DNA of 46,232 nt, from positions 1-46,232 of IMG/VR virus record IMGVR_UViG_3300040808_002695; one strand, given 5' to 3'. Position numbers and translations under genes: made by a program. This document shows positions 1 through 40,351 of the stretch, piece by piece (the first letter of the stretch is position 1; each line of letters opens with the position of its first letter). The DNA comes from a virus. The notes beneath the pieces are model-generated. The model was not told where the DNA came from, made no database searches, and saw nothing but the letters and a program-made list of their open reading frames with translations.

Positions 1-1149
1 GTCACAGACCCGCCGTATGGACTCGGCAACACGAGCCCGAAGCACGTTGCCGCGTGTCTTCAGGCATGGAGCGCAGGCGATACGTGGCAACCGAAGGGGC
101 GCGGATTCATGGGGCGCGAGTGGGACGCATGGGTCCCCCCTCCTGAGCTCTGGCGCGAGGTGCTGCGTGTCCTCAAACCCGGCGGGCACGCGGTCATATT
201 CGCTGGCTCGCGTACTCAAGACCTGATGAGCGTCTCGCTTCGCCTCGCAGGGTTCGAGATCCGCGACACACTCATGTGGTTGTACGGTACAGGGTTCCCA
301 AAGTCGCTGGATGTCTCAAAGGCGATAGATAGAGCGCTAGGCGCCGAGGGACAACGCGAAGTAATCGGGCTCAAAACAAAGCCTGACGGCACCTTGAAAT
401 CTGCTCGCGATTTCCTCAGAACCGAAGGGGTACTCTCAAGGCTGGGTCAAAAGAACCTCGAAGAAGCCGAACGGGCGCGATATAACACAGCGAGCGCGAC
501 CGATGAGGCGCATCGATGGGAGGGATGGGGAACCGCGCTCAAGCCCGCGTATGAGCCCGCGATCCTCGCGCGGAAGCCGTTAAGCGGTACCGTCGCTCAT
601 TGTGTTCTTGAGCATAATACGGGCGCAATTAACATCGACGCGTCGCGTGTCGGGGATGAGGGGGGAACGCGCTCGGGGCGCATCGCGGGGAGCACCGTCT
701 CCGCTTTCGGAGACGGTTTGAACGGTGGGGGCGCGTATCCACTCAATAAGGGACGCTTCCCCGCGAACGTGCTCCTTGGAGAGTCCGTCGCCGACGAGCT
801 CGAAGAGCGCTCGCGCTACTTCTACACCCCCAAGGCGTCCAAAGCGGAGCGCGAGGCGGGCTTAGGTGACTTCGAGAAGCGACGCGCGAACACACACCCC
901 ACTGTGAAGCCTATCGAGCTGATGAGATACTTAGTTCGCATGGTAACGCCCCCTGAAGGCTTGGTGCTGGATCCCTTCGCGGGCAGTGGCTCCACACTCT
1001 GTGCCGCTGCCCTTGAGGGTTTTGAGTGTCTCGGCATCGAGCGGGAGGAAGAATATGTAGCGATCGCACGCGCGAGAGTGGCACATTGGGCAGCGGAGCG
1101 CTCACAGGGTCAGCTCTCACTCTTCGAGAGCGAGGTGAGTCATGAGTAA
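1..1149 (+). CDS. DNA methyltransferase (N6-adenine or N4-cytosine), 5' end cut by the window
   Basis: The frame is open from base 1, where the codons read VTDPPYGL, so the catalytic DPPY motif lies at the very start and the gene begins upstream. The C-terminal part carries HPTVKPIELMRYLV followed by DPFAGSGST, the S-adenosylmethionine-binding motif, and then the usual FECLGIEREEEY segment. Catalytic motif before SAM motif is the order of beta-class amino-methyltransferases. The enzyme would methylate an exocyclic amino group in phage DNA, probably to evade host restriction or mark its own DNA. The central 200 residues between the motifs are the variable target-recognition region. Its stop overlaps the next start by 8 bp. 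Base specificity (A or C) cannot be told from sequence alone, and no partner restriction gene is visible. Confidence 0.9.
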   Translation, partial: VTDPPYGLGNTSPKHVAACLQAWSAGDTWQPKGRGFMGREWDAWVPPPELWREVLRVLKPGGHAVIFAGSRTQDLMSVSLRLAGFEIRDTLMWLYGTGFPKSLDVSKAIDRALGAEGQREVIGLKTKPDGTLKSARDFLRTEGVLSRLGQKNLEEAERARYNTASATDEAHRWEGWGTALKPAYEPAILARKPLSGTVAHCVLEHNTGAINIDASRVGDEGGTRSGRIAGSTVSAFGDGLNGGGAYPLNKGRFPANVLLGESVADELEERSRYFYTPKASKAEREAGLGDFEKRRANTHPTVKPIELMRYLVRMVTPPEGLVLDPFAGSGSTLCAAALEGFECLGIEREEEYVAIARARVAHWAAERSQGQLSLFESEVSHE

Positions 1150-5057: not shown

Positions 5058-5699
5058 ATGAACGCAGAACGAATTGAGCGGATGATCGCTCGCGCATATG
5101 AGGCTCACGCGATGAACGTCGTTGAGCCTCCACGGAACATGTATGTCAATGATCGAGGAGAGCTACTCCACAAGGATCGATCAGGCGAGTACTACGAAGC
5201 GACCGCAGAGAGCAACGGGCACACGGGAGCCGAGATCATACGTTACATCCGAGAGGGCCTCGAATGGCCCAAGGACACACCATATCTCAATTCTTGGAAT
5301 TTGAAACTCGGGGGCTTCTCTTGGTGTGGAGCTTTCGCGGCGTGGTGCGACATCGAGCTGAGATCTGATCTACGAAAGAAAGTGCTCCCCTCTACGTATC
5401 GCCTCTGGGAGTATTGCCGAGGCACAGAGCGGGAGATCCCCCTCGATCAGATCCAACGAGGTGACATTGTCGTCATCGGGAAGAAGACCTCCAAACGATG
5501 GGGGCAGCACATCACCCGAGCTGTCGAGGTGACTCCGACTCACGTGCTCACCATTGAAGGGAACGCTCACGGAAGGCTCGGAGATGGCTCATGGGGGGAA
5601 GGCGTTGTGACACGTCGCCGTCCATTCAAGGGCCATCAAGAGGGGCGTGAGAGTTGGATTATGTTCGCATATCGTTTCACCGATGAGGATTACCAATGA
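5058..5699 (+). CDS. CHAP-domain peptidoglycan hydrolase (putative lysin)
   Basis: The 213-residue product contains FSWCGAFAAWC with catalytic Cys90, then GDIVVIGKK, GQHIT with His151, and LTIEGNA. These are the Cys, His and acidic/Asn blocks of the CHAP amidase/endopeptidase fold that cuts peptide bonds in peptidoglycan. The N-terminal 70 residues are not recognised and may bind the wall. AAAGGAG lies seven bases before the chosen ATG. A longer frame from 4977 is rejected because it would precede this site and overlap the cyclase start. No signal peptide is visible, so release would need a holin. The stop overlaps the portal start (ATGA), which puts the lysin at the head of the structural operon; a virion-associated role is possible. 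Confidence 0.85.
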   Translation: MNAERIERMIARAYEAHAMNVVEPPRNMYVNDRGELLHKDRSGEYYEATAESNGHTGAEIIRYIREGLEWPKDTPYLNSWNLKLGGFSWCGAFAAWCDIELRSDLRKKVLPSTYRLWEYCRGTEREIPLDQIQRGDIVVIGKKTSKRWGQHITRAVEVTPTHVLTIEGNAHGRLGDGSWGEGVVTRRRPFKGHQEGRESWIMFAYRFTDEDYQ

Positions 5700-7360
5700 G
5701 AACACACAATCCCCGTCCGTCATGGTTCGAGCGGATGCAAGAGCTCACTGAGATCTCGGAGAGCCTGATTCAAAAGGCGATGACCTCCGAGAACGTGGGG
5801 CCGTCCGAGCCGATCGCGCATGACGTCAACCCTTGGGACAGCACCGCAGCATATGGAGATTCGTATCGGAGCACTGAGCATGAGGGCACGATCGGCCTCG
5901 ACTACGAGGTGCTTCGTCGTATGTCTAATGTCCCCGTAGTGTCTGCGATCATTCAAACCCGCGTCAATCAAGTCGCGGAGTTCTGCACACCTCAAAAAGA
6001 TAAATACTCGGCGGGCTTCGTGATCTCACCACGAGACTCCGACGCTGAGATGACTGATGAGCTACGAGACAAGATCAACGAGTTGACGCGATGGCTCGAG
6101 AGCTGTGGCGAAGGGTACAAGTACGGGGGCGCGGATTCGTTCGAGGCGTTTATCCGAATGATCCTGCGAGACTCGTTAACCTTCGATCAGTGCGCTTTTG
6201 AGATCATGAAGAATCGAGGCGGAGAAGTCACGGGGTTTATCCCCGTCGATGCTTCAACGATTCGGCGCTCTGCGATCTCTGATGAGGAGAAAGCGGAGGG
6301 CCGAAGAGACTGGGAAGACTCTGCATTCATTCAGGTCATCAACGGGAAGAAGGTCGCGGAGTGGGATGCTGATTCTCTCGCTTTTGGGATTCGTCGTCCT
6401 CGCACTTGGGTCTATTCGAGAGGATACGGGCATCCTGAGCTTGAAGAGCTCGTGCGTGTGATCACCTACCTCGTCAACGCGGAGACGTACAACGCGAGTA
6501 ACTTCACGAACGGGATCCATGTAAACTCGATCCTTTCGGTCAAAAGTAAGATGAGTCCTCAAGTGTTTCGTGCGTTCAGGCGAGACTTTTACGCGATGCT
6601 CTCAGGAGCCCATCAAGCAAAGCGTACTCCGATTCTTCAACTCGACCCCGAAGCAAACGAGGAAGTATCGAGCGTGAATCTCGGTCAGAGCGCCGAGGAG
6701 ATGGGGTATTCGACTTGGATGGGCTATCTGACGAAGGTTGCATGTGCGATTTATCAGATTGACCCCGCCGAGCTCGGCTTCGTCTTCGGCGCGGAGGGAG
6801 TATCGACCTCTTTGAGTCAGGGAGGACCAGAGCAGCGCATCCTCGCCTCGAAGGATCGGGGCTTGCGTCCGTTATTGAGGCAGGTTCAGGGATGGATCAA
6901 CCGATGGATCATTCATCCCATCGACCCCGAACTAAGCTTCAGGTTCGTCGGGCTCGACGCGAAATCCGCAGACAGTGAGCTCAAGCGACGAGTCGACGAA
7001 GTGAGCCATTATCTCACGATCAACGAAGTACGCGCAGATGCAGGGCTTGAGCCTCTGAAGTCAGGTGGCGACATCATCATGAATCAGACGTTCGTGACTG
7101 CGCTCATGGGAAGCGATGGCGCAGAGGGCGAAGTCTCTTCGTTTGGAGAACCCGAAGAGAGCATGGAGGATGAGGGCTCAGGGATTGCTGAAGAGAGCAT
7201 GGAGGATGAGGGCTCAGGGATTGCTGAAGAGAGCATGGAGGATGAGGGCTCAGGGATTGCCGAAGAGAGCATGGAGGATGATGGCTCAGGGATTGCCGAA
7301 GAGGAGGAGGACGCTTTAGGAAAGAGTCAAGGACTCGTGAGAGTGAGTGTCGAGATATGA
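5696..7360 (+). CDS. Portal protein
   Basis: This 554-residue protein has features of the large HK97/SPP1-like portal group. An N-terminal helical part leads to NVPVVSAIIQTRVNQVAEF, then an AFIRMILRDSLTFDQCAFEI block. The central wing contains YLVNAETYNASNFTNG, followed by the EQRILASKDRGLRPLL segment and a C-terminal INRWIIHPIDPEL region. It would form the dodecameric DNA gate at one capsid vertex. The C-terminal 60 residues are an acidic extension of four 12-residue repeats. It is followed with 4-bp overlaps by two small conserved genes and a Mu F-like protein, the usual portal neighbourhood. Terminase, often just upstream of portal, is not found here. Confidence 0.88.
   Translation: MRTHNPRPSWFERMQELTEISESLIQKAMTSENVGPSEPIAHDVNPWDSTAAYGDSYRSTEHEGTIGLDYEVLRRMSNVPVVSAIIQTRVNQVAEFCTPQKDKYSAGFVISPRDSDAEMTDELRDKINELTRWLESCGEGYKYGGADSFEAFIRMILRDSLTFDQCAFEIMKNRGGEVTGFIPVDASTIRRSAISDEEKAEGRRDWEDSAFIQVINGKKVAEWDADSLAFGIRRPRTWVYSRGYGHPELEELVRVITYLVNAETYNASNFTNGIHVNSILSVKSKMSPQVFRAFRRDFYAMLSGAHQAKRTPILQLDPEANEEVSSVNLGQSAEEMGYSTWMGYLTKVACAIYQIDPAELGFVFGAEGVSTSLSQGGPEQRILASKDRGLRPLLRQVQGWINRWIIHPIDPELSFRFVGLDAKSADSELKRRVDEVSHYLTINEVRADAGLEPLKSGGDIIMNQTFVTALMGSDGAEGEVSSFGEPEESMEDEGSGIAEESMEDEGSGIAEESMEDEGSGIAEESMEDDGSGIAEEEEDALGKSQGLVRVSVEI
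7154..7297 (+). repeat. Four in-frame 36-bp tandem repeats in the portal C-terminus
   Basis: Four 36-bp copies start at 7154, 7190, 7226 and 7262 and encode EESMEDEGSGIA. The first three are almost identical at DNA level and the fourth has an Asp for Glu. They make a flexible acidic tail and could vary in number by slippage. Confidence 0.9.
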
Positions 7361-7761: not shown

Positions 7762-8414
7762 AAGTGACGTTAGAAGCGAGCGCGGAGGAACTAGGAAACC
7801 TATCCCGCGAAAAGCTGATTGAGCGCATTACGAGGGCACTCCCGCGAGTCGTAGACTCAGCGATAGAGAGCGCGATGAGTAAGGGGAATGAGCGAGCGGA
7901 TACTCCTGCGGAGCCTCATGAGCGCATCAAGGGGAGTAAGAAGAACCCGAAGGGCTCCGCGCGAAGTGCGTCGAGTGGTGCTTCAATTAAGCTGTCAGAC
8001 TCGGTCATCGATGCACTTAAAGCAAAGGTTAAAGAGCACAACGAAAACGCGGATAAAGCTTGGCAACGAGTGACACTTGCTCAACTAAAAAGCGTTTGGC
8101 GACGCGGGGCGGGCGCGTTCTCTGTGTCTCATCGACCCTCACAAACTCGGTCTTCTTGGTCTTATGCTCGCGTTAATGCGTTCCTGAAGATCGTCATGGG
8201 AGCAGGCAACAAAAAGTACACTCAGGACGATGATCTCCTGCACCGAGACCACCCGAGACGCAAGGCAAAAAAGGCGCTAGAGCCTATGAGCAAAGCACGC
8301 GGGGGAGAGATCGACCTCGTCGCGGAGCTCGCCTCGCGAATGCGCGACCTCTATGAAGTGCGCCTGAGTGCTCTCGGAGATGATCTTGAGAGGCTGGTGT
8401 CCGATGACTCGTGA
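7758..8414 (+). CDS. Conserved hypothetical head-region protein
   Basis: The 218-residue product has a helical N-terminal 45 residues, a low-complexity Lys/Ser linker (about 56-76) and a conserved core. The core reads LKSVWRRGAGAFSVSHRP, then SWSYARVNAFLKIVMG and KKYTQDDDLL. This core occurs in proteins of phage head gene clusters, sometimes joined to the GGDAGDRWA domain encoded just upstream, which suggests the two act together. Function is unknown to me. The C-terminal helix overlaps the start of the next gene. Confidence 0.65.
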   Translation: MKVTLEASAEELGNLSREKLIERITRALPRVVDSAIESAMSKGNERADTPAEPHERIKGSKKNPKGSARSASSGASIKLSDSVIDALKAKVKEHNENADKAWQRVTLAQLKSVWRRGAGAFSVSHRPSQTRSSWSYARVNAFLKIVMGAGNKKYTQDDDLLHRDHPRRKAKKALEPMSKARGGEIDLVAELASRMRDLYEVRLSALGDDLERLVSDDS

Positions 8415-9429
8415 GGAACTCGCGGCGGAGACTCGGAAACTCGTTGCTTTGCACCATGATGCTTTTCTCGTTGAGCTCTTTGGGGAGGAGGGCTCGGGGC
8501 TCGATGAAGAGAGACTCGCAGAACTCCGAGAAGCGGAGCTCGTTGGAGACCCCTTAACATTCGCGGACGTGCCTCCATATGAGTTCATGTTGCTCGCCTC
8601 TCATGTGTTCGGAAATAACCCCGATCGCCTCGCAGAACTCAGAGAGCAGGGGATCGAGGAGTTTGAGCCTCTAGTCTCTGTGCAGCTCCGCGACTTGAGA
8701 AACACAGAGCGTTCAACGGTCGAGGTTCCAGAGGTCGCGACTCCCTCAGCACCAGAGGAACCAGAGGACGCTCCCCCGCGTTCTCCTCCTCCCGCTCCCG
8801 ATTGGATGAGCGTGGCTGAGCGGGGAGCATATGAGCGTCTTTCCTCACGGGCGGGTGAGTACATCAGAGGACTAGGAAACGCTTTGAGTGAGGAGCTTGA
8901 AAACGTAGCGGCGGAGGGTTGGCAGGGTGAGGAGATCATTGAAGAGGTAAACGCCGAACAACGAGCCGAGATGCTCGCCATACTCCGAGAGGAAGCGGCG
9001 AATGAGAGCGCAAGTGGCAGAGATGCGCGTCGGCTTGCGGGGACACTTGCGGATAGATCGAAGTACTACGCGCATAACTGGGAGCGCATCGCTCAAACCG
9101 AGTTACAGGGAGCGCACAACGAGGGGCGCGTGATCGCGGCAAGCGAGGCATATGGAGACGAAGCGCAGGTTGCTCGCATCCCCGAGAGCGGCGCGTGTGA
9201 TCAGTGTCTGCGTCTCTTCACCGAAGACGGGGGGAGACCTCGGGTCTTCGCCGTCGATGAGTTGACTGCTAACGGGGTCAATGTGGGGCGAAGTCGCGCT
9301 GATTGGCTCCCCACCGTGTTCCCCATCCATCCAAATTGTCGATGTGATACAATCACAGTTCCCCAGGGTTTCGTTGTGACTGAAGACGGAAGACTGCGAC
9401 GGCCCGAGACGTTGACAGAGGAGTCATGA
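8404..9429 (+). CDS. Mu F-like minor head protein (head morphogenesis)
   Basis: The 341-residue product ends in the Mu gpF/SPP1 gp7 domain. IAQTELQGAHNEGRVIAASE comes first, then ARIPESGACDQCLRLF with a Cys pair, and PTVFPIHPNCRCDTITVP near the C-terminus. This Cys/His arrangement is typical of the family, which joins the portal and the inside of the procapsid. A Pro-rich linker (residues about 117-143) separates an acidic N-terminal domain. The start at 8404, overlapping the previous gene by 11 bp, is preferred to the longer frame at 8368 because GAGAGG lies upstream. Confidence 0.85.
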   Translation: MTREELAAETRKLVALHHDAFLVELFGEEGSGLDEERLAELREAELVGDPLTFADVPPYEFMLLASHVFGNNPDRLAELREQGIEEFEPLVSVQLRDLRNTERSTVEVPEVATPSAPEEPEDAPPRSPPPAPDWMSVAERGAYERLSSRAGEYIRGLGNALSEELENVAAEGWQGEEIIEEVNAEQRAEMLAILREEAANESASGRDARRLAGTLADRSKYYAHNWERIAQTELQGAHNEGRVIAASEAYGDEAQVARIPESGACDQCLRLFTEDGGRPRVFAVDELTANGVNVGRSRADWLPTVFPIHPNCRCDTITVPQGFVVTEDGRLRRPETLTEES

Positions 9430-9899
9430 AATGAGTTTTAAGTTTGCGAGTTGGGTGCGTGCCCTGATGAAAGGGATGGGGCATCGCTATATCAAACGTA
9501 TCCCATATATGACTCCCAAGGGGCTACGCTACCGATACATTTATCGAGTGGATCATACGCATCAGGGGAAGCATGCCTTTCACGAAGATCACCTCATTCA
9601 AGGAACAAAGTTCGCGTTATCGACTGAAGATGGCGCTGAGTTTCATGGACACATCGAGTCTGTGGACGGCGATAAGGTGAAGTACGTGATTGATGACGGT
9701 CCGCAAAAGGGCGAAGTCGTCGAGACTACAAAACAAGAACTCGCGGCGAAACTGAACGAGGTGCATGGAGTGAGTGACAAACTCGCAGATGCACGAGACA
9801 AGGCTAGAGAAAACCTAGAACAGGTGAAGCAAAGCGGAGGCTCTGAAAAACAGATCGCTCGCGCACGTCGAAGACTGCTCGCTCTCGGTGGTACTGAGG
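9412..9899 (+). repeat. 488-bp direct repeat, copy 1
   Basis: From TTGACAGAGGAG, which includes the ribosome-binding site, through the first 157 codons of the following gene, the DNA is nearly identical to 11365-11852. The offset is exactly 1953 bp. Long stretches have no mismatch. The main difference is a short patch around the ARENLEQ/SADLEQ codons. Confidence 0.9.
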
Positions 9900-11353
9900 G
9901 CGCAGATACCTCTGTACGCGAGGTGACACAAGGTGAGGAGAACTTTGATACAATATCTGATGAACACAAAGAGTTTATCCAGAACAAGACGCGCGAGTTT
10001 TCAAGAGAGCTGATGCATGGGCTCATTTATGAGCAGACGAAGCGTGGGAAGATTAAGACCTTACGCCCCTTTAGAATATCAGGTGGTGCAGAAAACGCTT
10101 TGCGAAAAATGGCTCTCTCTGCATTGAGAGGTGAAGACCTTATACATGTGGGCCTTAAGAGAGTCATAATCTCTGACATCGCAAACGAAAATATGATAGG
10201 TAGACTCCAAGCGCTTCTATCCGCAGGAGATACCGTTGAAGATAAACAAGACACTCTCTACAAACAAGCACTGATAGAGGTTGCTGATCATATTGATGAA
10301 GGTGCGCAAAGACTTGCAGACTATGGAAGTTACACCGAAGGAGAGCACCGCGCTGTAAAACAGAGAACAGCTTATCTAAGAGCGTTGAGCGCTGAGATCG
10401 AGAGCGCACAACCAACCACGCCCCGCGAGCAGCTCACCGAGACCGCGCGCGAGGAGACACGGGGCGCGGATGCTCCTGAGATCGCGCAAGAGTCCGAGCC
10501 TCAACGTTTTAGTGACATAAATCGAGAGTATCAACGCAGACTCGCAGCCGCACGAGACAAGGCCAGACAAAACTTAGAGCAGGTGAAGCGACGCGGGGGG
10601 ACTAAAAAGCAGATAGCGCAAGCACGTCGAAAACTGCGTGCTCTCGGTGGAACGGAGACCGTTGACACTCGAGCGCCCGATTCAGAGGATCCCAAACCGA
10701 CAGCGCAGTCAGCTTCTCCGAGCGGAGTGACTGATTCATCGGGGCAGTTGATGAGTAAGCGCACGCTACAAGAGATCGTCGCGAACATTGTAGAGACTGA
10801 ATCCAAGACGAAGCGCCTCAATATAGCGGACCTTCATGGGGCCTTGTATCAGCGCGGGGTGTCGATTCGCCCTGGACAGCTGAAGGACTTGTTATCCGCA
10901 GCCAGTAGTCGAAACATCATCTCCCTCAAGCCGTGGACCGAGGGACTCGATAAAGTGGAGTATCCTGAATACTTGATCAGTAGGCTTCAGGGGAACATGA
11001 TGTATCATGTAGAACCTGCCAATGGTCCCAAGCGAGATCTCCCCGATACTCCCGCGACCGTTCAATTGAATGGACGACCTCTCTCTCTCGCAGAAGTATC
11101 TCAAGAAGTAGTGCGTAAACTGGGATCCAACGCGACATCGATCAAGGATCTGGAAGCGGGGTTGAGGGAGTCGGGGATGGATATCGAGACGGGGCATCTC
11201 CACGATCACTTGAACTTGCTCAATGAGAAGGGAATCGTCGCGTTTGAAGAGGATCGCATGCACACGAGAAATCCCGACGCAACGAGCTCTCTCGTTCGAC
11301 GAGATGAGCAAGGAATAACTCGCGTATATGATAAAGTGAGACTAGCTCAATAG
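9431..11353 (+). CDS. Modular head-region protein A (polyvalent-protein-like), winged-helix-like C-terminus
   Basis: This is a 640-residue protein. Residues 1-157 are almost identical to the next gene and contain GMGHRYIKRIPYMTP, a YRYIYRVDHT block, HAFHEDHLIQGTKF and DDGPQKGEVV. That combination is found in large modular proteins encoded beside Mu F genes. A 36-residue helical motif (ARDKA, then NLEQVK, GG, KQIA, RR, ALGGTE) occurs at about 119-155 and again at about 371-407. The C-terminal 190 residues look like two winged-helix-like units (SKRTLQEIVANIVE...; LSLAEVSQEVVRKLG...). Proteins of this type may be packaged and injected with DNA to act on the host; that is inference from context. 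Its RBS is GAGGAG. Confidence 0.65.
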   Translation: MSFKFASWVRALMKGMGHRYIKRIPYMTPKGLRYRYIYRVDHTHQGKHAFHEDHLIQGTKFALSTEDGAEFHGHIESVDGDKVKYVIDDGPQKGEVVETTKQELAAKLNEVHGVSDKLADARDKARENLEQVKQSGGSEKQIARARRRLLALGGTEGADTSVREVTQGEENFDTISDEHKEFIQNKTREFSRELMHGLIYEQTKRGKIKTLRPFRISGGAENALRKMALSALRGEDLIHVGLKRVIISDIANENMIGRLQALLSAGDTVEDKQDTLYKQALIEVADHIDEGAQRLADYGSYTEGEHRAVKQRTAYLRALSAEIESAQPTTPREQLTETAREETRGADAPEIAQESEPQRFSDINREYQRRLAAARDKARQNLEQVKRRGGTKKQIAQARRKLRALGGTETVDTRAPDSEDPKPTAQSASPSGVTDSSGQLMSKRTLQEIVANIVETESKTKRLNIADLHGALYQRGVSIRPGQLKDLLSAASSRNIISLKPWTEGLDKVEYPEYLISRLQGNMMYHVEPANGPKRDLPDTPATVQLNGRPLSLAEVSQEVVRKLGSNATSIKDLEAGLRESGMDIETGHLHDHLNLLNEKGIVAFEEDRMHTRNPDATSSLVRRDEQGITRVYDKVRLAQ

Positions 11354-11364
11354 TGAGCAGTACA

Positions 11365-11852
11365 TTGACAGAGGAGCCATGAAATGAGCTTTAGTTTTGC
11401 GAGTTGGGTGCGAGCGCTGATGAAGGGGATGGGGCATCGTTACATCAAACGTATCCCATATATGACTCCCAAGGGGCTACGCTACCGATACATTTATCGA
11501 GTGGATCATACGCATCAGGGGAAGCATGCCTTTCACGAAGATCACCTCATTCAAGGAACAAAGTTCGCGTTATCGACTGAAGATGGGGCGGAGTATCATG
11601 GTCACATCGAGTCTGTGGACGGCGATAAGGTGAAGTACGTGATCGATGACGGTCCGCAAAAGGGCGAAGTCGTCGAGACTACAAAACAAGAACTCGCGGC
11701 GAAACTGAACGAGGTTCATGGAGTGAGTGACAAACTCGCAGATGCACGAGACAAGGCAAGTGCGGATCTCGAACAAGTGAAACAAAGCGGAGGCTCTGAA
11801 AAACAGATCGCTCGCGCACGTCGAAGACTGCTCGCTCTCGGTGGTACTGAGG
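11365..11852 (+). repeat. 488-bp direct repeat, copy 2
   Basis: Second copy of 9412-9899, again starting just before the ribosome-binding site and ending after GGTGGTACTGAGG. The sharp ends and very high identity indicate a recent duplication or ongoing gene conversion. Confidence 0.9.
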
Positions 11853-13381
11853 ACAAAGAGGAGCTCGAGGAGGTCGCGGAAAGCCAAAAAGACGCAGAGG
11901 ATCGCCCAGTCGCGGAAGTCATCGCGGACAAGACGCTTAGAAATGCGCTCGGGAGAGAGTTGTATTATAATAATTACTTCTCACTCGGAGAGCAGCGTCC
12001 CGAGATGCAAGAGCGCCTTGAGTCTGAAATCTTGGAACTTGTTAAGAGAAAACTGTTGCCCCGTTTGAAGGAGGGTGGCGTCGATGTTAGGGAGGATGAC
12101 TCGCGCCTAAAGTATTTCGCTTTTGAATTTGCTAATAGTCTGAAGAGTAGAACATCGGGGGAAGACGTGACGGAGGCCTCTTATCAAGAGGACGCGACTC
12201 AAGTTTTCTTCGCGAAATTGCCAATCTTGTACGTTTCGGACTTAGCGGACTTAGAGGGAGAAAAGAGCCAACTCCCTCCGAGTGTCGTGGTCGCGTTTGA
12301 CAATTTAGATCTCAGACTCTCTCCGACTCAGGTGCAAGCGGTAGGAAGGCTAAAGATCCCGCCGACAGCTTTGGTTGAGAGAATGGAGACCTTGAAGGGA
12401 CGAGGCTTATCGACTAAAGACGTGGTCAGTGGATCTAAGACTCCTCTCACCAAAGACGGAGAGGGAACATACAACCTCGGGGATCTTGGGACGTTGAAGT
12501 TTAGTTTTCAGGGAACCCGACTGCATTATGAAATCGTAGATGCAAAGGGTCAACGCTCTGCGGCTAGGGCGTTGAACTACTGGAAGCCTCTCCGAAACGT
12601 AGATAGAAAAGAAGTTCCTCGGGCGGTGATGAGCGCGGTTCTCTCGGGAGGCCAAGTTCCGCGCACCAAAGAAGACACTCAGCGAGAACTCGCGATGTTA
12701 TGGGGAATGAAGAAGGCGGATAAAGTCATCGCAGTAGATTCCAAACTCGCAGAGATCGAGGATCAGCAGTATGTCCAATCCCCCGTTGATGCGGCTGTGT
12801 CTTCAGGATTTGGGAATCCTACGGTCCAGGATCTGGAAGATCTGAGCGCTTCGGATAGAAAAGCGATGTTCGCTCTGGGCGAAGATGGGCGATACTCTGG
12901 CGCGATATATCAACGTGCTGGTTATGTGTTCGCGACCGATGGTCGTCAAGTGGCCTTCCGTGTCGCGGAATCAGGGCGTGAAAGGCGTATAACCAACACG
13001 GGAGGACTCGCGGCGTCGGCTCCCCAGATCACCGCCGTTCTCTCCGAAAAAAGCCCGAGTTTCTCTCTCGATCGCGGGGGGATTAGGCACTTGAGACGAG
13101 CGCTCAAAATCAACCCGTCTGCACAAGTAGATATCTCCGTGGAAAATGGTGCGTACACTCTCAGCATGCAGGGGAGAAAAGTGGGCCAATTTCCGCGTCA
13201 TATAGGCGACGAGCTCTCTGAGCGCGAGGTGGTGACAATCAGAGCAGAATTTCTCTCCAATGCGCTAAAGCACGCTAAAGAGACCGCGACGCTTCACCTT
13301 TCAGGTAAAGATAAGCCTGTCACGACGACAACAGATTCGGGGCTACATTCCATGTTCATGCCAATGATACGTGCAACCTAA
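11384..13381 (+). CDS. Modular head-region protein B with sliding-clamp-like C-terminus
   Basis: This 665-residue protein shares residues 1-157 with protein A and then diverges. Residues about 160-480 are unrecognised and mostly helical. Residues about 485-665 resemble the later domains of a DNA polymerase III beta-type clamp. GYVFATDGRQVAFR fits the ATDG-xx-LA strand motif. GGIRHLRRALKI and AEFLSNALKHAKE fit the helix of each clamp domain. KPVTTTTDSG and LHSMFMPMI near the end fit the terminal P-x-x-I/T...MPM pattern. If correct, it is a clamp fold carried by a protein made with virion proteins, either as a structural scaffold or as an injected factor that binds host clamp partners. By-eye resemblance only. 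Confidence 0.6.
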   Translation: MSFSFASWVRALMKGMGHRYIKRIPYMTPKGLRYRYIYRVDHTHQGKHAFHEDHLIQGTKFALSTEDGAEYHGHIESVDGDKVKYVIDDGPQKGEVVETTKQELAAKLNEVHGVSDKLADARDKASADLEQVKQSGGSEKQIARARRRLLALGGTEDKEELEEVAESQKDAEDRPVAEVIADKTLRNALGRELYYNNYFSLGEQRPEMQERLESEILELVKRKLLPRLKEGGVDVREDDSRLKYFAFEFANSLKSRTSGEDVTEASYQEDATQVFFAKLPILYVSDLADLEGEKSQLPPSVVVAFDNLDLRLSPTQVQAVGRLKIPPTALVERMETLKGRGLSTKDVVSGSKTPLTKDGEGTYNLGDLGTLKFSFQGTRLHYEIVDAKGQRSAARALNYWKPLRNVDRKEVPRAVMSAVLSGGQVPRTKEDTQRELAMLWGMKKADKVIAVDSKLAEIEDQQYVQSPVDAAVSSGFGNPTVQDLEDLSASDRKAMFALGEDGRYSGAIYQRAGYVFATDGRQVAFRVAESGRERRITNTGGLAASAPQITAVLSEKSPSFSLDRGGIRHLRRALKINPSAQVDISVENGAYTLSMQGRKVGQFPRHIGDELSEREVVTIRAEFLSNALKHAKETATLHLSGKDKPVTTTTDSGLHSMFMPMIRAT

Positions 13382-13409: not shown

Positions 13410-14429
13410 ATGCCATTTAAGAACGAACACGCAGCGCGTCAAAGTGACCCTGCACAATATTCCGAGTTTCGCCGATTCAAACCGCAGGGAGTCCCAGATG
13501 GCCTTGAGATGATTCTCGGCATCAAGGACGCGAAAAGCGAGATCCAAAGTATCCGAGCGGACGCGGACAAGATGACAAAAGACGAGTTGATTCAATGGCT
13601 TCGAGAACATGACTTTATGTTCGATGACGTAGAAGAGGCTACGAAGAAGAGTCTTGACACGTTCGCGCGTTGGGTCCCCATGTCACTTGATGACTTGACC
13701 AAAGGTCGCGAAGAGTCAGAGGATAGTGAAGACGAAGAGCTTTCTAAAGCGGTGATCGGAGGGATCTGCTCTACCCGAGACATGGACCTCGAGGGTGAAA
13801 TTGTCGAGCAAGATGGGATCGATTGGTCTTACTTCCTCGAGAATGGATGGTTCAATCACGAGCACGAGCAAGGCCCGAGCGCCGTTCTTGGGCATCCCGT
13901 GAAGATCGAGCCCGTTGACGACGAGCGAACTCGTGTCGAGGGCATCTTGTACCTAGATAAGAAGTTAGGCCGAGATGTTTATGAAACGGCGAACGCGATG
14001 AAGAAGGCCGGGGGAGAGCGCTCACTTGGCTTCAGCGTCGAGGGACAGGTGCTTCTCCGAGATCCCCAGAATCAGAAGCGGATTCTCAAAGCTCGAGTAC
14101 TCAATGTGGCGATCACTGCGATGCCTGTGAATCCGCACACGAACCTTGAGCTCATCGCGCGTTCGATTGGGGCGAGCATCGGATATCAAGAGGCATCGAT
14201 CCCCGATGCAGATGCAGCGATGAGTGCGCTCGTGCAACAAAGCCTTGATCGTAGACTGAGCTCTGCTACGTATGGAGCAGAGAAAAAGCGCACGTTGAAC
14301 TCTGCTGAGGTTAGAGAGCTCCTCCGCGAGAGGTTGCCGAGTACCGCAGATAAAGACCTAGATGTCCTCGTCGAGAAATTGATCAAACTCGCAAAGTCAA
14401 CGAAAAATACACACGCTGATAAATTATGA
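13410..14429 (+). CDS. Prohead protease (caudovirus serine protease)
   Basis: The 339-residue product starts with the EHAARQSDPAQYSEFRR block seen in XkdF-type proteins. The protease core contains AVIGGICSTRDMDLEGEIV, WFNHEHEQG with the likely catalytic His150, VEGILYLDK and GGERSLGFSVEG with the likely nucleophile Ser205. It ends with VLNVAITAMPVNPHT, a typical close of this fold. The enzyme would cleave the scaffold and capsid protein inside the procapsid and then itself. It precedes a scaffold-like gene and the capsid gene, as expected. The C-terminal 90 residues are charged and helical and may be a removable anchor. Confidence 0.85.
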   Translation: MPFKNEHAARQSDPAQYSEFRRFKPQGVPDGLEMILGIKDAKSEIQSIRADADKMTKDELIQWLREHDFMFDDVEEATKKSLDTFARWVPMSLDDLTKGREESEDSEDEELSKAVIGGICSTRDMDLEGEIVEQDGIDWSYFLENGWFNHEHEQGPSAVLGHPVKIEPVDDERTRVEGILYLDKKLGRDVYETANAMKKAGGERSLGFSVEGQVLLRDPQNQKRILKARVLNVAITAMPVNPHTNLELIARSIGASIGYQEASIPDADAAMSALVQQSLDRRLSSATYGAEKKRTLNSAEVRELLRERLPSTADKDLDVLVEKLIKLAKSTKNTHADKL

Positions 14430-14468: not shown

Positions 14469-15125
14469 ATGCTCGATCAAATGAAGAAGCACCTCGAGGC
14501 TAAAGGCGTAGATCCTTCGGTCCTCGATGACTATGAGAGCAGTGTCGCAGAGGTCGTTGAAGTCGAGGCCGACGCCCTGACTGATGCCTTGACAGCACTG
14601 ACAAAAGCCATGTCCCCTCGTGAAGAAGAGATGAAAGAAGACAAAGTCGCAGAGCGCGAAGAGTCTCTTTTTGACTTGGATGATCAAGAGCCTATGGACG
14701 AAGACTCTATGGACGAAGAAGACATGGACGTAGAAAAAGCCTACTATCGCGACGCGATGAAGGCTCTCGCCGACAACACTGACAAGATGATCGCTGATAT
14801 GAACAAGCGACTTGATGCAGTGATGAAGGGCGTTGAAGCGATGATGGAGTCAATGAAGGGCATGCAAGCGGAGAGTGAGGGGATGAATAAGAGTCTCAAC
14901 GCGCTTCGTAAAGAGCCTCAAGCTCCTCGCGCTGTTACTTCGGCTACTGCTCAGGCCCCAGCTCCTACGGGTCCCAGCCGTCAAGATTTCATCAAAAAAG
15001 GGTTGTCGATGTTGCAGGACAGCGACGTCGATACATTGCGAAAGGGAGCTGTACGCTCTGCGATCGCTCAACTTGAAGCGGGGATTCCTGTCTCCGCGAT
15101 CTCACACATCATTGATCTCGATTAA
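14469..15125 (+). CDS. Putative capsid scaffolding protein
   Basis: The 218-residue protein lies between protease and capsid genes. It is acidic in the first half (LDDQEPMDEDSMDEEDMDVE) and has long helices rich in Met, Lys and Glu (DKMIADMNKRLDAVMKGVEA onward) that suggest coiled coils. A Pro/Ala linker (about 153-172) and a compact C-terminal helical domain follow. This design of acidic helical body plus C-terminal capsid-binding segment is usual for scaffolds, and gene order supports it. A strong GGAG site precedes the start. There is no sequence motif that proves it, and a decoration or minor head protein is possible. Confidence 0.65.
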   Translation: MLDQMKKHLEAKGVDPSVLDDYESSVAEVVEVEADALTDALTALTKAMSPREEEMKEDKVAEREESLFDLDDQEPMDEDSMDEEDMDVEKAYYRDAMKALADNTDKMIADMNKRLDAVMKGVEAMMESMKGMQAESEGMNKSLNALRKEPQAPRAVTSATAQAPAPTGPSRQDFIKKGLSMLQDSDVDTLRKGAVRSAIAQLEAGIPVSAISHIIDLD

Positions 15126-15140: not shown

Positions 15141-16577
15141 ATGTATTCATTTCCAGAAGCCAACGCGCTCGTTAATGTAGCTGACCTCGCAAACCTGAAC
15201 TCAGCTCTCCGCAAGAGTGCCGACATCGGCTACCAAAGCGCGGCGGGTACAAGTGGCGGAGATGCGGGTAACCTCTCTCCCCTAGTTCCGCAGAGCATCG
15301 AGAACACTCTCAGCTCAGCGACCTACACAATGAAAGAGCTCAGCCTTTGGCCTATGATTCCAAAGGTCAGCGTCACCAACACACTCCACGAGTACGCGGT
15401 GATCAACGATCACGGTTTAGATCTCGAGCCCTTCATCGCAGAGGGTAGCGCGGGAACAACAAACCGTTCTGAATACGAGCGTAAGAGCGTCCGCGTCAAG
15501 TATCTCGCAGAGCGTCGCGAGGTTACGGACGTAGCGGGACTCGTCGGTCTCATCGGCAACAACGCGAACGCAATCGCGGCAGAGACTGAGCGCGGCACAC
15601 TTCGCCTCATGCAGAAGCTCGAGCGCTCATTGTGGCACGCGAAAGAGGGCGTTAATCCGCTCGCGTTCGATGGTATCATCGAGCAGATCGAAAGCCACAA
15701 CAGTGGGAAGAACACTTTCGACCTTCGCGGCAAGTCACCGACACCTCGCCTCCTCCAAGAAGTGCTCTCAGAGATCCAGAGTGCTCCGCGCTTCGGCCGC
15801 CCCGACTGCATCTATGTTGAGCCTCGCATCCATGCAGAGCTCATCAAGTTCGCAGTTCAGTTCGGTCGCCATGATCAATTTGCGGCACTTCGCGCGGCTG
15901 ATGGGCTCACCTATGGTGTCCAAGAGCTCAACATCATGAGCCCTTATGGGCCAGTTCCAGTAAAGAGCGCACCCTTCTTGTTCAATGCGTACAACGCACC
16001 TAGCGCCGCTTCATCATCAGCGGCTCCAGCGGGCGCGACAGTGAGCTCAATCGCTTCTGGGGGGAGCGACGGGAAGTTTGTAGCGGACGACGAGGGCTTC
16101 TACGGATATCGTATCGTGAGCGTAAGCAACGACGGTTTCAGCGCACCAGTGAATGCGACTGCGGTTGAGGTGTCAGCTTCTGAGAAAGTCACAATCACTC
16201 TCGCAGATCAAGCAGACGCCGTGTTCTATAAGATCTATCGCAGTGAGAAAGCCGCGACTTCGGGCGCAGTGGACTTCTCAACGGCTCGCCTCATCGGTGA
16301 GATCAAGAATACAAGCGGCGCACCCACTGTTTTCATCGATGATAACAGCGTTGTTCCGAACACAAGCAAGATCGTCTTCGTACAGCATGACCCCACCGTC
16401 ATGGAGTTTGTACGTCTCTTGGACTTCTTCCGTCGTCCTCTCGCTGAGACCGCGACTTCAAAGCCCTTCTTGCTCATGCTCTTCGGTGCTCCGATCGTCA
16501 AAGTTCCGAATAAGTGTTTTGTTCTTCAAAACGCTGGAGTCACTGAGACAAGCGGCATGCTGGACACCACGATCTGA
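15141..16577 (+). CDS. Major capsid protein, HK97-like, with an inserted FN3/Ig-like domain
   Basis: The 478-residue protein follows protease and scaffold and has the features of an HK97-fold shell protein. LSPLVPQSIENTL comes first, then a helical spine segment (ANAIAAETERGTLRLMQKLE) and PDCIYVEPRIHAELIKFAVQ. The C-terminal A-domain strands include VEFVRLLDFFRRPLAE-like sequence and PFLLMLFGAPIVKV. Residues about 283-408 interrupt this with an all-beta, Ser/Thr-rich stretch containing YGYRIVSVSNDGFSAPV and VFYKIYRSEKA, the pattern of a fibronectin III or Ig-like domain. It would protrude from the shell. AAGGAG precedes the start. The encoded N-terminal section is short, consistent with separate scaffold protein. 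Confidence 0.85.
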   Translation: MYSFPEANALVNVADLANLNSALRKSADIGYQSAAGTSGGDAGNLSPLVPQSIENTLSSATYTMKELSLWPMIPKVSVTNTLHEYAVINDHGLDLEPFIAEGSAGTTNRSEYERKSVRVKYLAERREVTDVAGLVGLIGNNANAIAAETERGTLRLMQKLERSLWHAKEGVNPLAFDGIIEQIESHNSGKNTFDLRGKSPTPRLLQEVLSEIQSAPRFGRPDCIYVEPRIHAELIKFAVQFGRHDQFAALRAADGLTYGVQELNIMSPYGPVPVKSAPFLFNAYNAPSAASSSAAPAGATVSSIASGGSDGKFVADDEGFYGYRIVSVSNDGFSAPVNATAVEVSASEKVTITLADQADAVFYKIYRSEKAATSGAVDFSTARLIGEIKNTSGAPTVFIDDNSVVPNTSKIVFVQHDPTVMEFVRLLDFFRRPLAETATSKPFLLMLFGAPIVKVPNKCFVLQNAGVTETSGMLDTTI

Positions 16578-16816: not shown

Positions 16817-17764
16817 ATGGGGATCTATACGCAGATAACGCCGCAGTTCATCAAAGATACGACGCTCCTCGGGGTCGACCTCACTTTAGATGATGGATCG
16901 AACTATCCAGACATCATCTATACTCAGTCTATCCAAGCCGCGATTCGACACGTCGAGAGCGACTTGGGAATCAACGTTGAGCCGTTCTCGGTACTCCGAG
17001 AGCGCCACGACGCAGAGCGACAAGGTCAGTTTAGTTATTGGCCTTTTCGGCTCGACTATCGTCCCGTAGCTTCATTTGAGGCTGCGCGGATTAGGTTCGG
17101 GAGTTTTCAGGCCGTAGAGATCCCGCTCTCGTGGATCACGGCAACCTCGAACACTCACGGACAAATCCACCTGATCCCAAGCTCTGAGTCTTTGGGGTCT
17201 TACTTCTATCGAGCGGGCGTGCCCTTGATGGGCGGTTCGGGGATCTATGAATCTCGCGGGTATATACCTGCTTATTTCGAGTTCGACTACATCGCAGGTT
17301 TCACGGATCAAACGGGATCCGCGACCATTCCCGCAGGGGAAACAGAGGTCGAAGTCACACTCCCTAAGAGCTTATTGATGAGTTACATCGTAACCACGGA
17401 TCAGAGCGCCGTGAGGGTGAGTGGACGGAGTAACGACGGCTTCACTTTAGCGTTGAGTTCAGCGCTCGCCGATGACCTAGTGATCTCTTGGACTGCGGAT
17501 ACCTTACCCGCAGATCTGAAACAAGCAGTGGGTATCAAAGCCGCGACTCTCTTGTTGTTGCATGTGGCTGGAGATTTGATTCTCGGAGCGGGTATCGCGT
17601 CTCAATCCGTCAGCGTAGACGGACTCTCAACGAGCATCGATACCACATCCTCCGCGATGTATTCAGGCTACTCCGCACGCGCAGAGAACCTTGACAAGCA
17701 ATATAAACACTTGATGCAAGGTCTACGTGCTCAGTACCGCGTTACTCAGTTCGGAGTCGTCTGA
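16817..17764 (+). CDS. Head-tail connector (adaptor) protein, putative
   Basis: The 315-residue product starts with a helical segment where YTQSIQAAIRHVESDLGINV fits the adaptor family that docks under the portal (HK97 gp6/SPP1 gp15 type). The C-terminal third (LPADLKQAVGIKAATLLLLHV) completes the helical bundle. Between them is an inserted beta-rich domain (about residues 60-215), longer than in typical adaptors. Position after the capsid gene and before the neck genes supports the call. The stop overlaps the next start (TGATG). Confidence 0.65.
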   Translation: MGIYTQITPQFIKDTTLLGVDLTLDDGSNYPDIIYTQSIQAAIRHVESDLGINVEPFSVLRERHDAERQGQFSYWPFRLDYRPVASFEAARIRFGSFQAVEIPLSWITATSNTHGQIHLIPSSESLGSYFYRAGVPLMGGSGIYESRGYIPAYFEFDYIAGFTDQTGSATIPAGETEVEVTLPKSLLMSYIVTTDQSAVRVSGRSNDGFTLALSSALADDLVISWTADTLPADLKQAVGIKAATLLLLHVAGDLILGAGIASQSVSVDGLSTSIDTTSSAMYSGYSARAENLDKQYKHLMQGLRAQYRVTQFGVV

Positions 17765-18576
17765 TGTCTACGTTTCCCGCACGAGCTCCCTCAAAGCTCA
17801 GACCGAGAGTTGACTTCGAGGATGAGAAGTTTCGACGTCTCATCTTCACGAAGGGGATTGATCTGAGTTGGGAGCAGTGCGCCGAGTGCCCTTGCGCTCG
17901 GGGATCTGATGATTTCTCGATCCCCTTGAGTTACGGCAGCGCAAACCAAGCGACAGGAGAAGCTCGCTCAGATTGTGCATTGTGCGACGGTACGGGATAC
18001 TTTTGGCACAGCGCCCAGGATATCCGAGCGGTTGTGACCTCCAGCACATCGAAGACCGAAGCGTTCGCGCTTTATGGTGAGTATGCTCGAGGTATGGTTC
18101 AGATTTCGACGCTGCCAGAGCATTTACCCTCTTATGGAGATCGTTTCACGGTACTTGAAAGCGTGCGCGTGTATCGTGAGACCCGAGTTCGGGGAGCTGG
18201 ATCGATCGAGGCTTTACGTTACCCCATCCAATCACGCACCCTCGACCTCTCCACGGGACTCTCTGAGGTCCGTGTTTTACGCTTTCAATACGCAAACGCG
18301 GACGGAACGAGTGCAGAGGCTAACTCTCTTACGGAGGGAGTGGACTTCACGGTCACAGCGGAGGGGAAGCTCGATCTTAGCCTAGGCGATGCGATAGACA
18401 GCACACCAACACAGGGGACGCGCTACAGTGTGTCATACTTTGCGAGGCCGCGTTATTATGTGGCTGATCATCCTCACGTTCATCGCGACTCGGTGCGACG
18501 ACACAAACAAGCAGAAGAGACGCCTCTTCTGCTCCCGATCCAAGTTCAGTGTTCTCTCGAATTCTTAGGGGGATGA
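17764..18576 (+). CDS. Zinc-ribbon-like neck/head-tail protein, putative
   Basis: The 270-residue product has two Cys clusters near its N-terminus: CAECPC (about residue 38) and CALCDGTGYFWH (about residue 75). Together they make a C-x2-C...C-x2-C arrangement that should bind zinc. The rest is beta-rich (VLESVRVYRETRVRG, VDFTVTAEGKLDLS, TRYSVSYFARPRYYVADHPH). The Cys arrangement recalls phage proteins encoded between connector and tail-completion genes, whose function I cannot name with certainty. It is translationally coupled with its neighbours. Confidence 0.6.
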   Translation: MSTFPARAPSKLRPRVDFEDEKFRRLIFTKGIDLSWEQCAECPCARGSDDFSIPLSYGSANQATGEARSDCALCDGTGYFWHSAQDIRAVVTSSTSKTEAFALYGEYARGMVQISTLPEHLPSYGDRFTVLESVRVYRETRVRGAGSIEALRYPIQSRTLDLSTGLSEVRVLRFQYANADGTSAEANSLTEGVDFTVTAEGKLDLSLGDAIDSTPTQGTRYSVSYFARPRYYVADHPHVHRDSVRRHKQAEETPLLLPIQVQCSLEFLGG

Positions 18577-33888: not shown

Positions 33889-36800
33889 ATGACTCCAACA
33901 AAAAGACGCACAAGCGCGGATCGTGCGAAAGCACTAGGGCTCGCTGTTTCTCAGCAGAGCGGAACCCCCGCAACGCCGTCTCAAGCAACGCCGTCTCAAG
34001 CAACGCCGTCTCAAGCAACGCCGCCTCAAGAGCGCCGTAGGATCAGCGCGGCTGATCGCATGAGCGCACTAGGGCTCTCCGATACTCCTCAAAGTGTCAG
34101 CTCAGGTCGATTCTTCGCGCGATCACAGGCTCAAGAGGCTTGTGACCTGCTCTCCCATGTATTCGATGAGCCGATTACAGTACTTCATCACCCCTTCGCG
34201 AAGAGCGCGAAAAGTAGGGGAAGTAACGTCGATCATTGGCGAAGGCTGCCGATGGCTGTAGCGCTCACATTGAATCATCCATATGACGGACACACGAATT
34301 ATCTCTCCGTCGATACACTGATCCGTGAAGATGAGCGATCACCCCGTGTGACTCTCGACGCGCTGAAACTGGGAGCTCGGATCGATTATCTTATGTTCGA
34401 TTACGATCTCCCCAAAGCGTCACACGGTGGCAAAGAGCAGATGACTCCCGAGAAGTTCAGGGAGTGCATTCTCAAATATACAGAGCATCCCATCTTGCGA
34501 GGTTGCGTGTTCTACGCGACGCGCGGAGGGTTGCGTGCAGTCACTCGACTCGCGAAACCTTTTCATCTTGATCCCTCGTTGCGGGGTGCTGATTGGTCGG
34601 CGTTCTATGAGCGCCTCCGAAAAAGTCTCCCCGATGAATGGGATCCTGCGTGTAAGGACGCGGGGAGACTCTTCCGCTTACCTTGGGTATTGCGAGCAAA
34701 ATACGACGCAAAGGGAAAGATCCAGAGCACCGAGCCTCAAAACGGTGAGCTTTGGATCCCTGATGAGATCATCCCTTATACATTAACGCCCGAAGACCTC
34801 ACTCAAATCGTAGCCTCATCGACCAAAGGAAGCGAGCGACGAGACGCGGTACAAGGCGATAAGCTCGTTCGTTTCTTCGAGCGCATCAGTCTCCTCGGTG
34901 AACAATACAAATCCATCAATGATCAACCGAGCTACTACGCGACGTGTCCTCTCGCGCATCATCATTCGAGCGACAATGAGACCTCGACTCTCCTACATGC
35001 TGTAGAGGGAGGAGGCTATGTTCTCCGATGTCTTCATGCGACATGCACATCAATCGCTCAAGAGCGCGGAGGCTGGAGAGCTTACCTACAGAGCCAATAC
35101 TCAACAGAGTGGCGCGAGATCGTAGGGCGCGAAGAACTCGATTATTTCTATGATCCCTATGATCATCAACTCTTCGTGGAGCAGGTTGTCGAGATCCTTG
35201 AGGCTCAATATCCCGATAAGATCTTTCGTCGGCACGATGAGATCGCAACGATCGAACGCTCTCCTCATGGGGGAGCTCGGTGGCGAGCTTGGAGCGTCGC
35301 GGATCTCTGCGGTCTCGTTAATCGTGTAGCTCGTTGGTCCCAAGCAGGAAGAGAAGGGGAAACAAAGCGCACCTCGATCCCTGAGCGTATGATCAAGATT
35401 CACATGCTCGCAATCGCTGAAGAGCTCCCACGTTGCGAGACCGCCACCACACTCCCTCCCCTCGATCCCCAAACGCATCAGCCTACGAGATTCAGTGAGG
35501 GTTATTGCCCGATCACGGAAGCGTATTATCTCCCGTCTCCGAACCTCGACCTCGAGAAGCTCAGAGACGCATCGACGCGACGACTCACGTTGAACGATGC
35601 AATCAACGCTTACACGGATCTCATTGATCTTTATTATGATTTCCCTTGGAGGCACAAAAAACACCGCGTTCTCGCCGCTGCCGTTGCGATGACCGTCGCT
35701 CTCCGCCGAAGCGTTGACGTCGCTCCTCTGGTGTTCGTGAGTGCGAATAACAAGGGAGCAGGAAAAACGAAGATGCTCAGTGCCGCGAGCGCCTCCGTTC
35801 ATGGTCATACGCCTCCCCTCAGCTCACTCCCGCATCGTGAAGAGGAACTCAAAAAGCACCTCGACTCTCTCGTTCATAGCGACGCAGACTTCTGCGTCTT
35901 CGATAACGTGAGCTCACGAATCGGCGGGGCTGTGTTGGATGCGTTCATCACTTCACCTCTGCATAGTTATCGACCGCTCGGGAACACAGATATCCGCGTT
36001 TCTCCGAACCGCGTTTTTCTAGGTGGCACAGGAAACAACGCGACACTCGGCGGAGACACAGACCGCCGAACACTGATGATCCGACTCGTCACTGAGCTTG
36101 AAGACCCCAGCACGCGCACAGGTTTTCGGTTCCCCGATTTGATCGGTGAGGCGAAGTCACGAGTAACCCGCACATGGTGCTCGATCATCACTCTCCTGCG
36201 TGCATGGCGCGAAGTCGCACAGCACGCCGATCAAGAAGCCGTTCGCCACAAAGCGAGACCCTTCGGATCCTTTGAGGAGTGGAGCTCACTGATTCGAGAT
36301 CCGCTGATGTGGATCACCTCGATCACTGAAGGAGAGATGATCGACGTAGTCGCGCTATCTCGGGAAGAGGTGGACACAGCTCAAGAAGATAATCGTACGG
36401 AGCTCTTCGGGATCTTGTGGAACTGGCAGGAGACGCGCACGAGTAAAGATCGCTCATGGACTTCTAAGGATCTGTTTCGCGATGTTAAACGCGCGATGGA
36501 GGATGATGACGAAGACTCAGACCTTGCGAGCATCGGAGAGTCGTTACCTCGATTTACGTTGCAACGCCTATCTAAGCTCATCAGCTCACGGAGAGATCAA
36601 GTGAGTGAGGGATTGAAGCTAGGACATAAGAAAGTGAAGGGTACACAGAGATGGATCATAACTCCAGTCGACGGAGCACCCAAGACCCCGAGCCCGAAGC
36701 CTCCTGAGACTCCGAACGTAGATCCCTTCAAAGCTTCGAGCCCCGAGCCTCCACCCCAAGCACCTCGAGAGCGAGCTGAGGAGCTCCCCGTGATCTCATG

Positions 36801-40246: not shown

Positions 40247-40259
40247 ATGTAAAAAGCGG

Positions 40260-40288
40260 TTGACATATTAGACCGCGTCTACTATCCC
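40260..40288 (+). promoter_or_regulatory. Promoter of the SSB-like gene, TTGACA-N17-TATCCC
   Basis: A perfect TTGACA (40260-40265) lies 17 bases before TATCCC (40283-40288). The dyad GCGGT (40256-40260) and ACCGC (40272-40276) flanks the -35 box and may be an operator. Confidence 0.55.
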
Positions 40289-40297
40289 TGAAGAGTC

Positions 40298-40312
40298 GGC
40301 TCATCCTGAGCC
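40298..40312 (+). promoter_or_regulatory. Small hairpin at the start of the SSB-like mRNA
   Basis: GGCTCA-TCC-TGAGCC is a perfect six-base stem with a three-base loop a few bases after the expected transcription start. Such 5' hairpins often protect phage mRNAs from decay. Confidence 0.45.
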
Positions 40313-40351
40313 ACAACAACGAACAACGAACAAAGATCACGGAGAAACGAA

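Follow-up and report, generated by a model that had tools for sequence, protein, structure and literature searches.

A reused N-terminal module heads unrelated proteins, one with a sliding-clamp-like fold, among the virion genes of a myophage clade

Introduction

In phage T4, the internal proteins IPI, IPII and IPIII and the protein Alt share an N-terminal capsid-targeting sequence (CTS) that loads otherwise unrelated proteins into the prohead and is removed there by the prohead protease; the cargo is injected and varies between relatives, and Alt is cut at its C-terminus as well (PMC9026906, PMC12373910). In phage P1, an N-terminal segment of more than 9 and fewer than 30 residues of DarB, a large polyvalent protein, suffices to place a foreign protein in the capsid (PMC9024508). 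Here we analyze two adjacent genes, A and B, from an uncultured myophage (IMG/VR virus record IMGVR_UViG_3300040808_002695; its whole length of 46,232 bp is called the window below). The two proteins begin with a nearly identical module, and we consider it likely that they are virion cargo proteins that are loaded into the head by a common tag, probably cleaved, and injected with the DNA.

The locus resembles T4 in that one leader stands on unrelated proteins, here 55 open reading frames (ORFs) with 14 C-terminal groups, and some of the cargos are tagged at both ends. Unlike in T4, the candidate cleavage site lies after LxK, the T4 motif being different, and the conserved module has 156 residues and is predicted to stay on the cargo, which is large and multidomain. 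The P1 capsid is cut at E120|S121, and P1 offers one protein where this clade reuses a family of tags. The likeness to the T4 CTS and the P1 DarB signal is one of function only.

A and B also share features with the polyvalent proteins (Iyer et al. 2017, PMC5512222), which are likewise multidomain and mosaic and have the genes for portal, MuF and protease as neighbors. Of the domains known from that class, ART-PolyVal, LPD1, methyltransferase and metallopeptidase-like ones occur here in the cargo of relatives. In contrast, the main text of that paper names no clamp, DnaN or PCNA domain, and its parts on targeting and N-terminal domains describe no common N-terminal tag. MuF-linked polymorphic toxins also combine a constant, head-linked N-terminal part with variable C-terminal effectors, but the constant part here is not a MuF domain: A and B contain none, and MuF is a separate, constant gene. 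A and B fit best among polyvalent phage cargo, and their mechanism would be like that of a capsid-targeting sequence. New here are the defined 156-residue reused module, the predicted processing at LxK|(A/G/S), the clamp-like cargo and a tag that evolves in concert.

Results and discussion

A shared module with sharp borders

A sequence-only reading of the window had described two adjacent modular proteins with a nearly identical N-terminus of 157 residues and unrelated C-termini. A (9431-11353, 640 aa) and B (11384-13381, 665 aa) match at 151 of 156 residues, which is the length we obtained for the shared part, and their C-termini are unrelated to each other. Over the initial 468 coding bases the genes are 95.1% identical, with 23 differences (15 synonymous and 5 non-synonymous codon differences), and mechanical repeat detection returned the repeat of about 488 bp, ribosome-binding site included, as families D1 and D2. 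Compared in steps of 20 bases, A and B are close to random at -60 and -40, agree at 18/20 positions at -20, where the ribosome-binding site lies, remain at 14-20/20 up to about +468 and drop to 5/20 at +480, the end falling within a few codons of residue 156. Chance is ruled out as the source of the repeat, and the earlier description of a 488-bp duplication that carries the ribosome-binding site and stops abruptly was accurate.

The repeat had also been said to stop at the end of a helical motif. The border is correct, but the motif is present a third time, in part, within A (nt 10520-10657, aa 364-409). In A it therefore recurs after an inserted domain of about 185 residues; in the close relatives L003, L004 and L008/L032, A lacks this domain and hairpin copies 1 and 2 are only a short linker apart. 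A thus consists of several disparate parts (module, inserted domain, hairpin copy and winged-helix-like region), and B of the module, a middle region and a clamp:

9409..9430, plus strand: duplicated ribosome-binding-site segment before A (TTGACAGAGGAGTCATGAA), from the repeat comparison
9431..9472, plus strand: A residues 1-14, amphipathic tag peptide MSFKFASWVRALMK with the candidate cleavage site K14|G15 at its end (alignment, motif)
9431..9898, plus strand: A N-terminal module, comprising tag peptide, GHRYIKRIPY..RYRYIY hairpin, SH3/KOW-like barrel and helical hairpin (alignment, HMM, model)
9899..10450, plus strand: inserted helical domain of A, about 185 residues
10520..10657, plus strand: third, partial copy of the helical hairpin in A (aa 364-409)
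10748..11350, plus strand: C-terminal region of A, two winged-helix-like units (about aa 440-530 and 545-640), modeled with low confidence
11362..11383, plus strand: duplicated ribosome-binding-site segment before B (repeat comparison)
11384..11425, plus strand: B residues 1-14, tag peptide MSFSFASWVRALMK with the candidate cleavage site K14|G15 (alignment, motif)
11384..11851, plus strand: B N-terminal module (alignment, HMM, model)
11852..12445, plus strand: variable middle region of B, for which L008/L032 have a different and longer counterpart
12446..13378, plus strand: sliding-clamp (DnaN)-like region of B, whose final complete clamp domain spans about aa 559-660 (13058-13363) (model, relatives)

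The module heads unrelated proteins across one myophage clade

Because searches with the A and B sequences against Pfam, PHROGs, PDB and a phage collection (and against plasmids for A only) gave no significant or useful match, homology had to come from IMG/VR, where relatives were found with a degenerate pattern of the RYIKR-IP..RYRY.Y core followed by a profile scan. The contigs recovered belong to one myophage clade with a common gene order. A hidden Markov model (HMM) placed the module in 55 ORFs at 40 loci, some of them near-identical; it is always N-terminal and starts at residue 1-3 wherever the start is present. Identity of the module to distant relatives is 39-74%, and the positions invariant in the first alignment (23 sequences) include K14, GH.YIKRIPY, RYRY.Y, E70, H72, HI and DDG..KG. 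In the module part of the AlphaFold model of B, residues 5-15 form a helix, 19-39 a beta hairpin, 60-100 a small barrel and 101-151 a helical hairpin; the barrel has weak Foldseek and Pfam matches to SH3/KOW-like barrels. Two scans of genome contigs found no module relative, and so the host could not be named.

The C-termini of the module ORFs fall into 14 unrelated groups:

Clamp-like, the commonest cargo: 13 ORFs
Group with a conserved HELAHS-type motif (L025/L035), probably a metallopeptidase: 9 ORFs
A type (winged-helix-like): 5 ORFs
DNA methyltransferase: 3 ORFs (phrog_15406, 1e-134 or better; one methyltransferase match at 6e-137)
LPD1: 2 ORFs (8e-23 and 8e-21)
ART-PolyVal (ADP-ribosyltransferase): 1 ORF (7e-14)
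Remaining groups: without name

Several of these are known effector or polyvalent domains, and no single fused gene, which the sequence-only reading had named as the observation that would speak against it, was seen in the relatives. Its proposal of a common N-terminal module with exchangeable C-termini is thus upheld by the sequences of independent genomes, and its interpretation as a whole is partly supported.

Tagged genes occupy at least six slots (g1/portal, portal/g3, g4/MuF, MuF/protease, t3/t4 in the tail cluster, and a position beyond the sheath gene), all of which fall among virion genes; L049 and L050 have no tagged gene in the MuF-protease interval. The clamp cargo is encoded immediately upstream of the protease gene or separated from it by one tagged gene. 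Between the window and L008/L032 the flanking proteins are 97-100% identical, yet the middle of B differs, the clamp has diverged and A is without the insert. In LysYB1 (L010, a distant SPO1-type phage), an untagged large gene after MuF (M3_0224) ends in an ADP-ribosyltransferase-like region, recognized by eye and not by a profile match, and from this gene the slot after MuF seems to be an old home for effectors. In the gut phage L011 (MT835500), ORFs that appear Hint/intein-like and Nudix-like by eye also follow MuF.

A candidate prohead-protease site ends the tag peptide

A and B sit in the head cluster of the window, between the genes for a MuF-like protein and an S78 prohead protease:

5696..7360, plus strand: portal, with a conserved candidate site K27|A28
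8368..9429, plus strand: MuF-like minor head protein
13410..14429, plus strand: S78-family prohead protease (PF04586, phrog_1028), likely the processing enzyme
14469..15125, plus strand: scaffold-like protein with many [LIVMF]xK[AGS] sites
15141..16577, plus strand: major capsid protein, with a conserved candidate site LRK25|S26

Every module opens with a variant of M.F.F..(F/W)V..(L/F).K(G/A), and its residues 1-14 form an amphipathic peptide that ends in [LIVMF]xK|[AGS]. This motif is strongly in excess, and conserved in position, in the scaffold (107 observed against 21 expected in 22 sequences, with five conserved sites), in the protease (81 against 24.5) and in the portal (67 against 30, the N-terminal site being present in 22/22). 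The major capsid protein has it at one conserved place, ALRK|SA, in 19/19 sequences, and in MuF it was not observed (0 against 2.6 expected). Every one of the distinct cargo proteins compared (38/38) has the tag site, and sites in the cargo bodies are depleted (62 against 88 expected).

The tag peptide without the rest of the module recurs at the extreme C-termini of the methyltransferase and LPD1 cargos (FTF...VD.LLKG and similar), namely in both tagged proteins of L041, in L042:6122-8950 and in L060:4628-7942; among ORFs on the virion-gene strand it has no other occurrence. This second copy suggests loading or processing signals at both ends of these cargos.

The pattern of tag and motif is as expected for a processed head-loading signal. 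Because the candidate prohead-protease site is common to capsid, portal and scaffold, we infer that the start of the module is a protease-processed head-loading tag that would act in the manner of the T4 and P1 capsid-targeting sequences. The earlier suggestion that the N-terminus is a loading module is made likely by the same site. Its other argument, the MuF neighbor as a sign of delivery, fared less well: A and B do adjoin the MuF gene, but tagged genes also occupy other slots, some of them far from MuF, and MuF lacks the motif, so we set proximity to MuF aside as a basis for delivery.

Packaging, cleavage, injection and a host role for each cargo would then follow a simple scheme. The first 14 or so residues (M.F.F..WV..L.K) would serve as the head-loading signal and bring the cargo into the prohead during assembly, where the S78 protease would probably cut after the invariant K14, at a [LIVMF]xK|[AGS] motif that it would also use on capsid, portal and scaffold. 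The remaining 140 or so residues of the module (a basic Tyr/Arg-rich hairpin, the SH3/KOW-like barrel and the helical hairpin) would stay on the cargo and, less firmly, might bind DNA or a partner within the head. The C-termini would be exchangeable effectors that leave with the DNA, winged-helix-like in A and sliding-clamp-like in B.

Several points weigh against this scheme. The conserved module, at 156 aa, greatly exceeds both the T4 CTS (about 10 aa) and the P1 DarB signal (<30 aa) in length, and it must have some function besides targeting. The specificity of the protease is deduced from motif conservation; no report of a cleavage site in an SPO1-type relative was found in the openly available literature, and the conserved sites in the protease itself and in the middle of the portal could be structural. 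The connector-like gene t2 (17764-18576, after the capsid gene) has 18 motifs against 4.4 expected, with position 30 occupied in 10/13, an excess that is unexplained for a connector or tail protein, so the motif does not strictly mark out head-interior proteins. Finally, we know of no isolated phage of the module clade.

Module copies evolve in concert while the cargo changes

The duplicated module copies are nearly identical in DNA, and for this reason they recombine with one another, which homogenizes the tag and helps the swapping of cargo. Over the first 60 bases and the upstream segment, the A copies of different phages are identical and the B copies nearly so, and A differs from B at 8/60 coding positions. 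Over bases of about 61-374, A and B of the same phage show 6 differences in the window and 4 in L032, whereas comparisons between the phages give 10 differences for A against A and 11 for B against B. A protein tree pairs A with B of the window, A with B of L032, and both copies of L042; support for the two shallow A+B pairs is modest (86/76 and 87/76). As judged from these sequences, the module paralogues are homogenized within a genome by recombination between copies, that is, by concerted evolution. The cargo changes independently of the homogenized module: B of L032 has a different middle region, and its clamp region is just 28% identical to that of the window.

The C-terminal cargo of B has a sliding-clamp-like fold

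The C-terminal 300 or so residues of B were modeled by AlphaFold with pLDDT mostly at 80-93 and one weak stretch at about 530-560. In PDB, Foldseek matched the model best to DnaN-type clamps (probability 1.00, E from 6e-8). Of the 50 best PDB rows, nearly all carried the name of a DnaN-type clamp and none a recognizably different fold family; the model also matched two-domain phage clamps of 210-240 aa. Superposition across domains was poor (TM-score about 0.3, rmsd about 15-20 Å), so the claim is limited to the fold of the domains, their arrangement in the model being unreliable.

PHROG 947 (processivity factor) was matched in its last third by relatives L027 and L020 (4.6e-6 and 1e-4). One clamp-cargo member reached DNA_pol3_beta_3 at 0.011, under the cut-off, and there was no Pfam match above threshold; alignment of the clamps to E. 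coli DnaN by hhalign was not significant, and a PDB search with the clamp-cargo profile returned no clamp match. An HMM built from the cargo clamps alone ranked two real DnaN genes (L050, L059) next after the cargo clamps. A clamp-like C-terminal cargo of B is strongly supported by the modeled fold, and its assignment to the clamps draws on this fold and on PHROG 947. B shares the fold with DnaN and phage beta-clamps (PHROG 947), with full DnaN as well as with two-domain phage clamps of about 210-240 aa, and differs from them in that its clamp is fused to a putative head-loading module, is encoded in the head operon and has almost lost sequence similarity. For A, the model had a mean pLDDT of 52 and its winged-helix matches (SelB, MecI, Fur) came at E 0.15 or worse, which is only a hint of a winged-helix-like region. 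Of the two labels that the sequence-only reading had given to the C-termini, clamp-like for B thus stands firmly and winged-helix-like for A weakly.

Sister phages have genuine full-length DnaN genes, which lie upstream of the head cluster and on the strand opposite to it (L050:312-1643, minus strand; L059:1280-2479, minus strand; G002:C1:15469-16602); all three Pfam DnaN domains were checked for the L050 and L059 genes. L049 and L050, with a full DnaN and a complete MuF/protease slot, have no clamp cargo, and the L059 record ends early. Neither of the two longest records with clamp cargo (the window, 46 kb, and G001/L042, 50 kb) has a DnaN gene. With two clear cases per side and records that may be incomplete, the sample is small, but such a split would be expected if the replication clamp had moved into the virion.

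Alternative explanations

A recent, plain tandem duplication, in which the common N-terminus would be an ordinary DNA-binding domain with no tag function, is suggested by the adjacent paralogous N-termini, each with its own ribosome-binding site. Given that the module occurs in distant relatives, in many slots and before unrelated C-termini, and that the site-specific tag motif is kept in 38/38 cargo proteins, we regard this as highly improbable, and a simple two-copy duplication was rejected on account of the module family in relatives. A and B might instead work inside the head as minor structural or assembly proteins (core or scaffold-like proteins or portal-vertex plugs) that use the module to build the prohead, are not injected and have C-termini that act in assembly. 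Their genes do have MuF on one side and the protease and scaffold genes on the other, and the candidate protease site is common to module and scaffold. Assembly proteins should be conserved, however, yet near-identical phages swap the cargo, which includes ART, LPD1 and methyltransferase domains without an assembly role, and L049 and L050 manage without any tagged gene between MuF and protease; we therefore think an assembly role unlikely.

For B, two other explanations share the clamp fold and differ in its role. The protein may be the phage's own replication clamp fused to a module, brought along in the virion to give the incoming genome a processivity factor, rather than an effector against the host. 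This would suit the fold itself, the absence of DnaN from the longest clamp-cargo records and of clamp cargo from L049 and L050 with their DnaN, and the standing of the clamp as the commonest cargo, at the protease gene or one tagged gene from it. The exclusion, however, counts two clear cases per side in possibly incomplete records, the middle and the clamp of the protein change rapidly, with 28% identity between phages that are otherwise near-identical, and the phage polymerase is family-A-like, with no known need for DnaN, so we entertain this as a possibility of some weight but below even chances. Alternatively, the clamp could be a decoy or poison that mimics domain III of the host DnaN together with its C-terminal MPxR, which lines the partner-binding cleft; it would titrate host clamp partners or block clamp loading. 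Many members retain an (I/F)MPxR-like C-terminal motif, and polyvalent cargo is usually host-directed (PMC5512222). In several members MPxR has been lost, though (IMGIT, IMEHV in its place), and many members keep basic residues on the helix that should face DNA, which fits DNA binding better than mimicry; we find a decoy rather doubtful.

With A and B taken as injected virion cargo, a further step can be offered only tentatively: this clade may carry a sliding clamp in the virion, a processivity factor moved from a DnaN gene to a head-loaded cargo and delivered with the genome through a reusable, gene-converted module that also serves many other effectors. If the clamp cargo is indeed injected, replication or anti-replication machinery would be delivered with the DNA, a mode not described for polyvalent proteins. 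The module also provides a sequence tag for finding virion-delivered effectors, as any gene headed by it, in any slot, is a candidate for an injected protein, and a specific protease motif is predicted for a whole group of S78-protease phages. The tag might serve as a handle for protein delivery.

Other features of the window

The C-terminal end of the portal holds tandem copies of an acidic unit (EESMEDEGSGIA); the L003 portal is 12 residues shorter, consistent with one unit fewer. A DNA methyltransferase gene lies at one end of the window (109-1149), and the other end (33889-42943) holds a replication block with primase/polymerase-like, exonuclease, helicase and family-A-like DNA polymerase genes.

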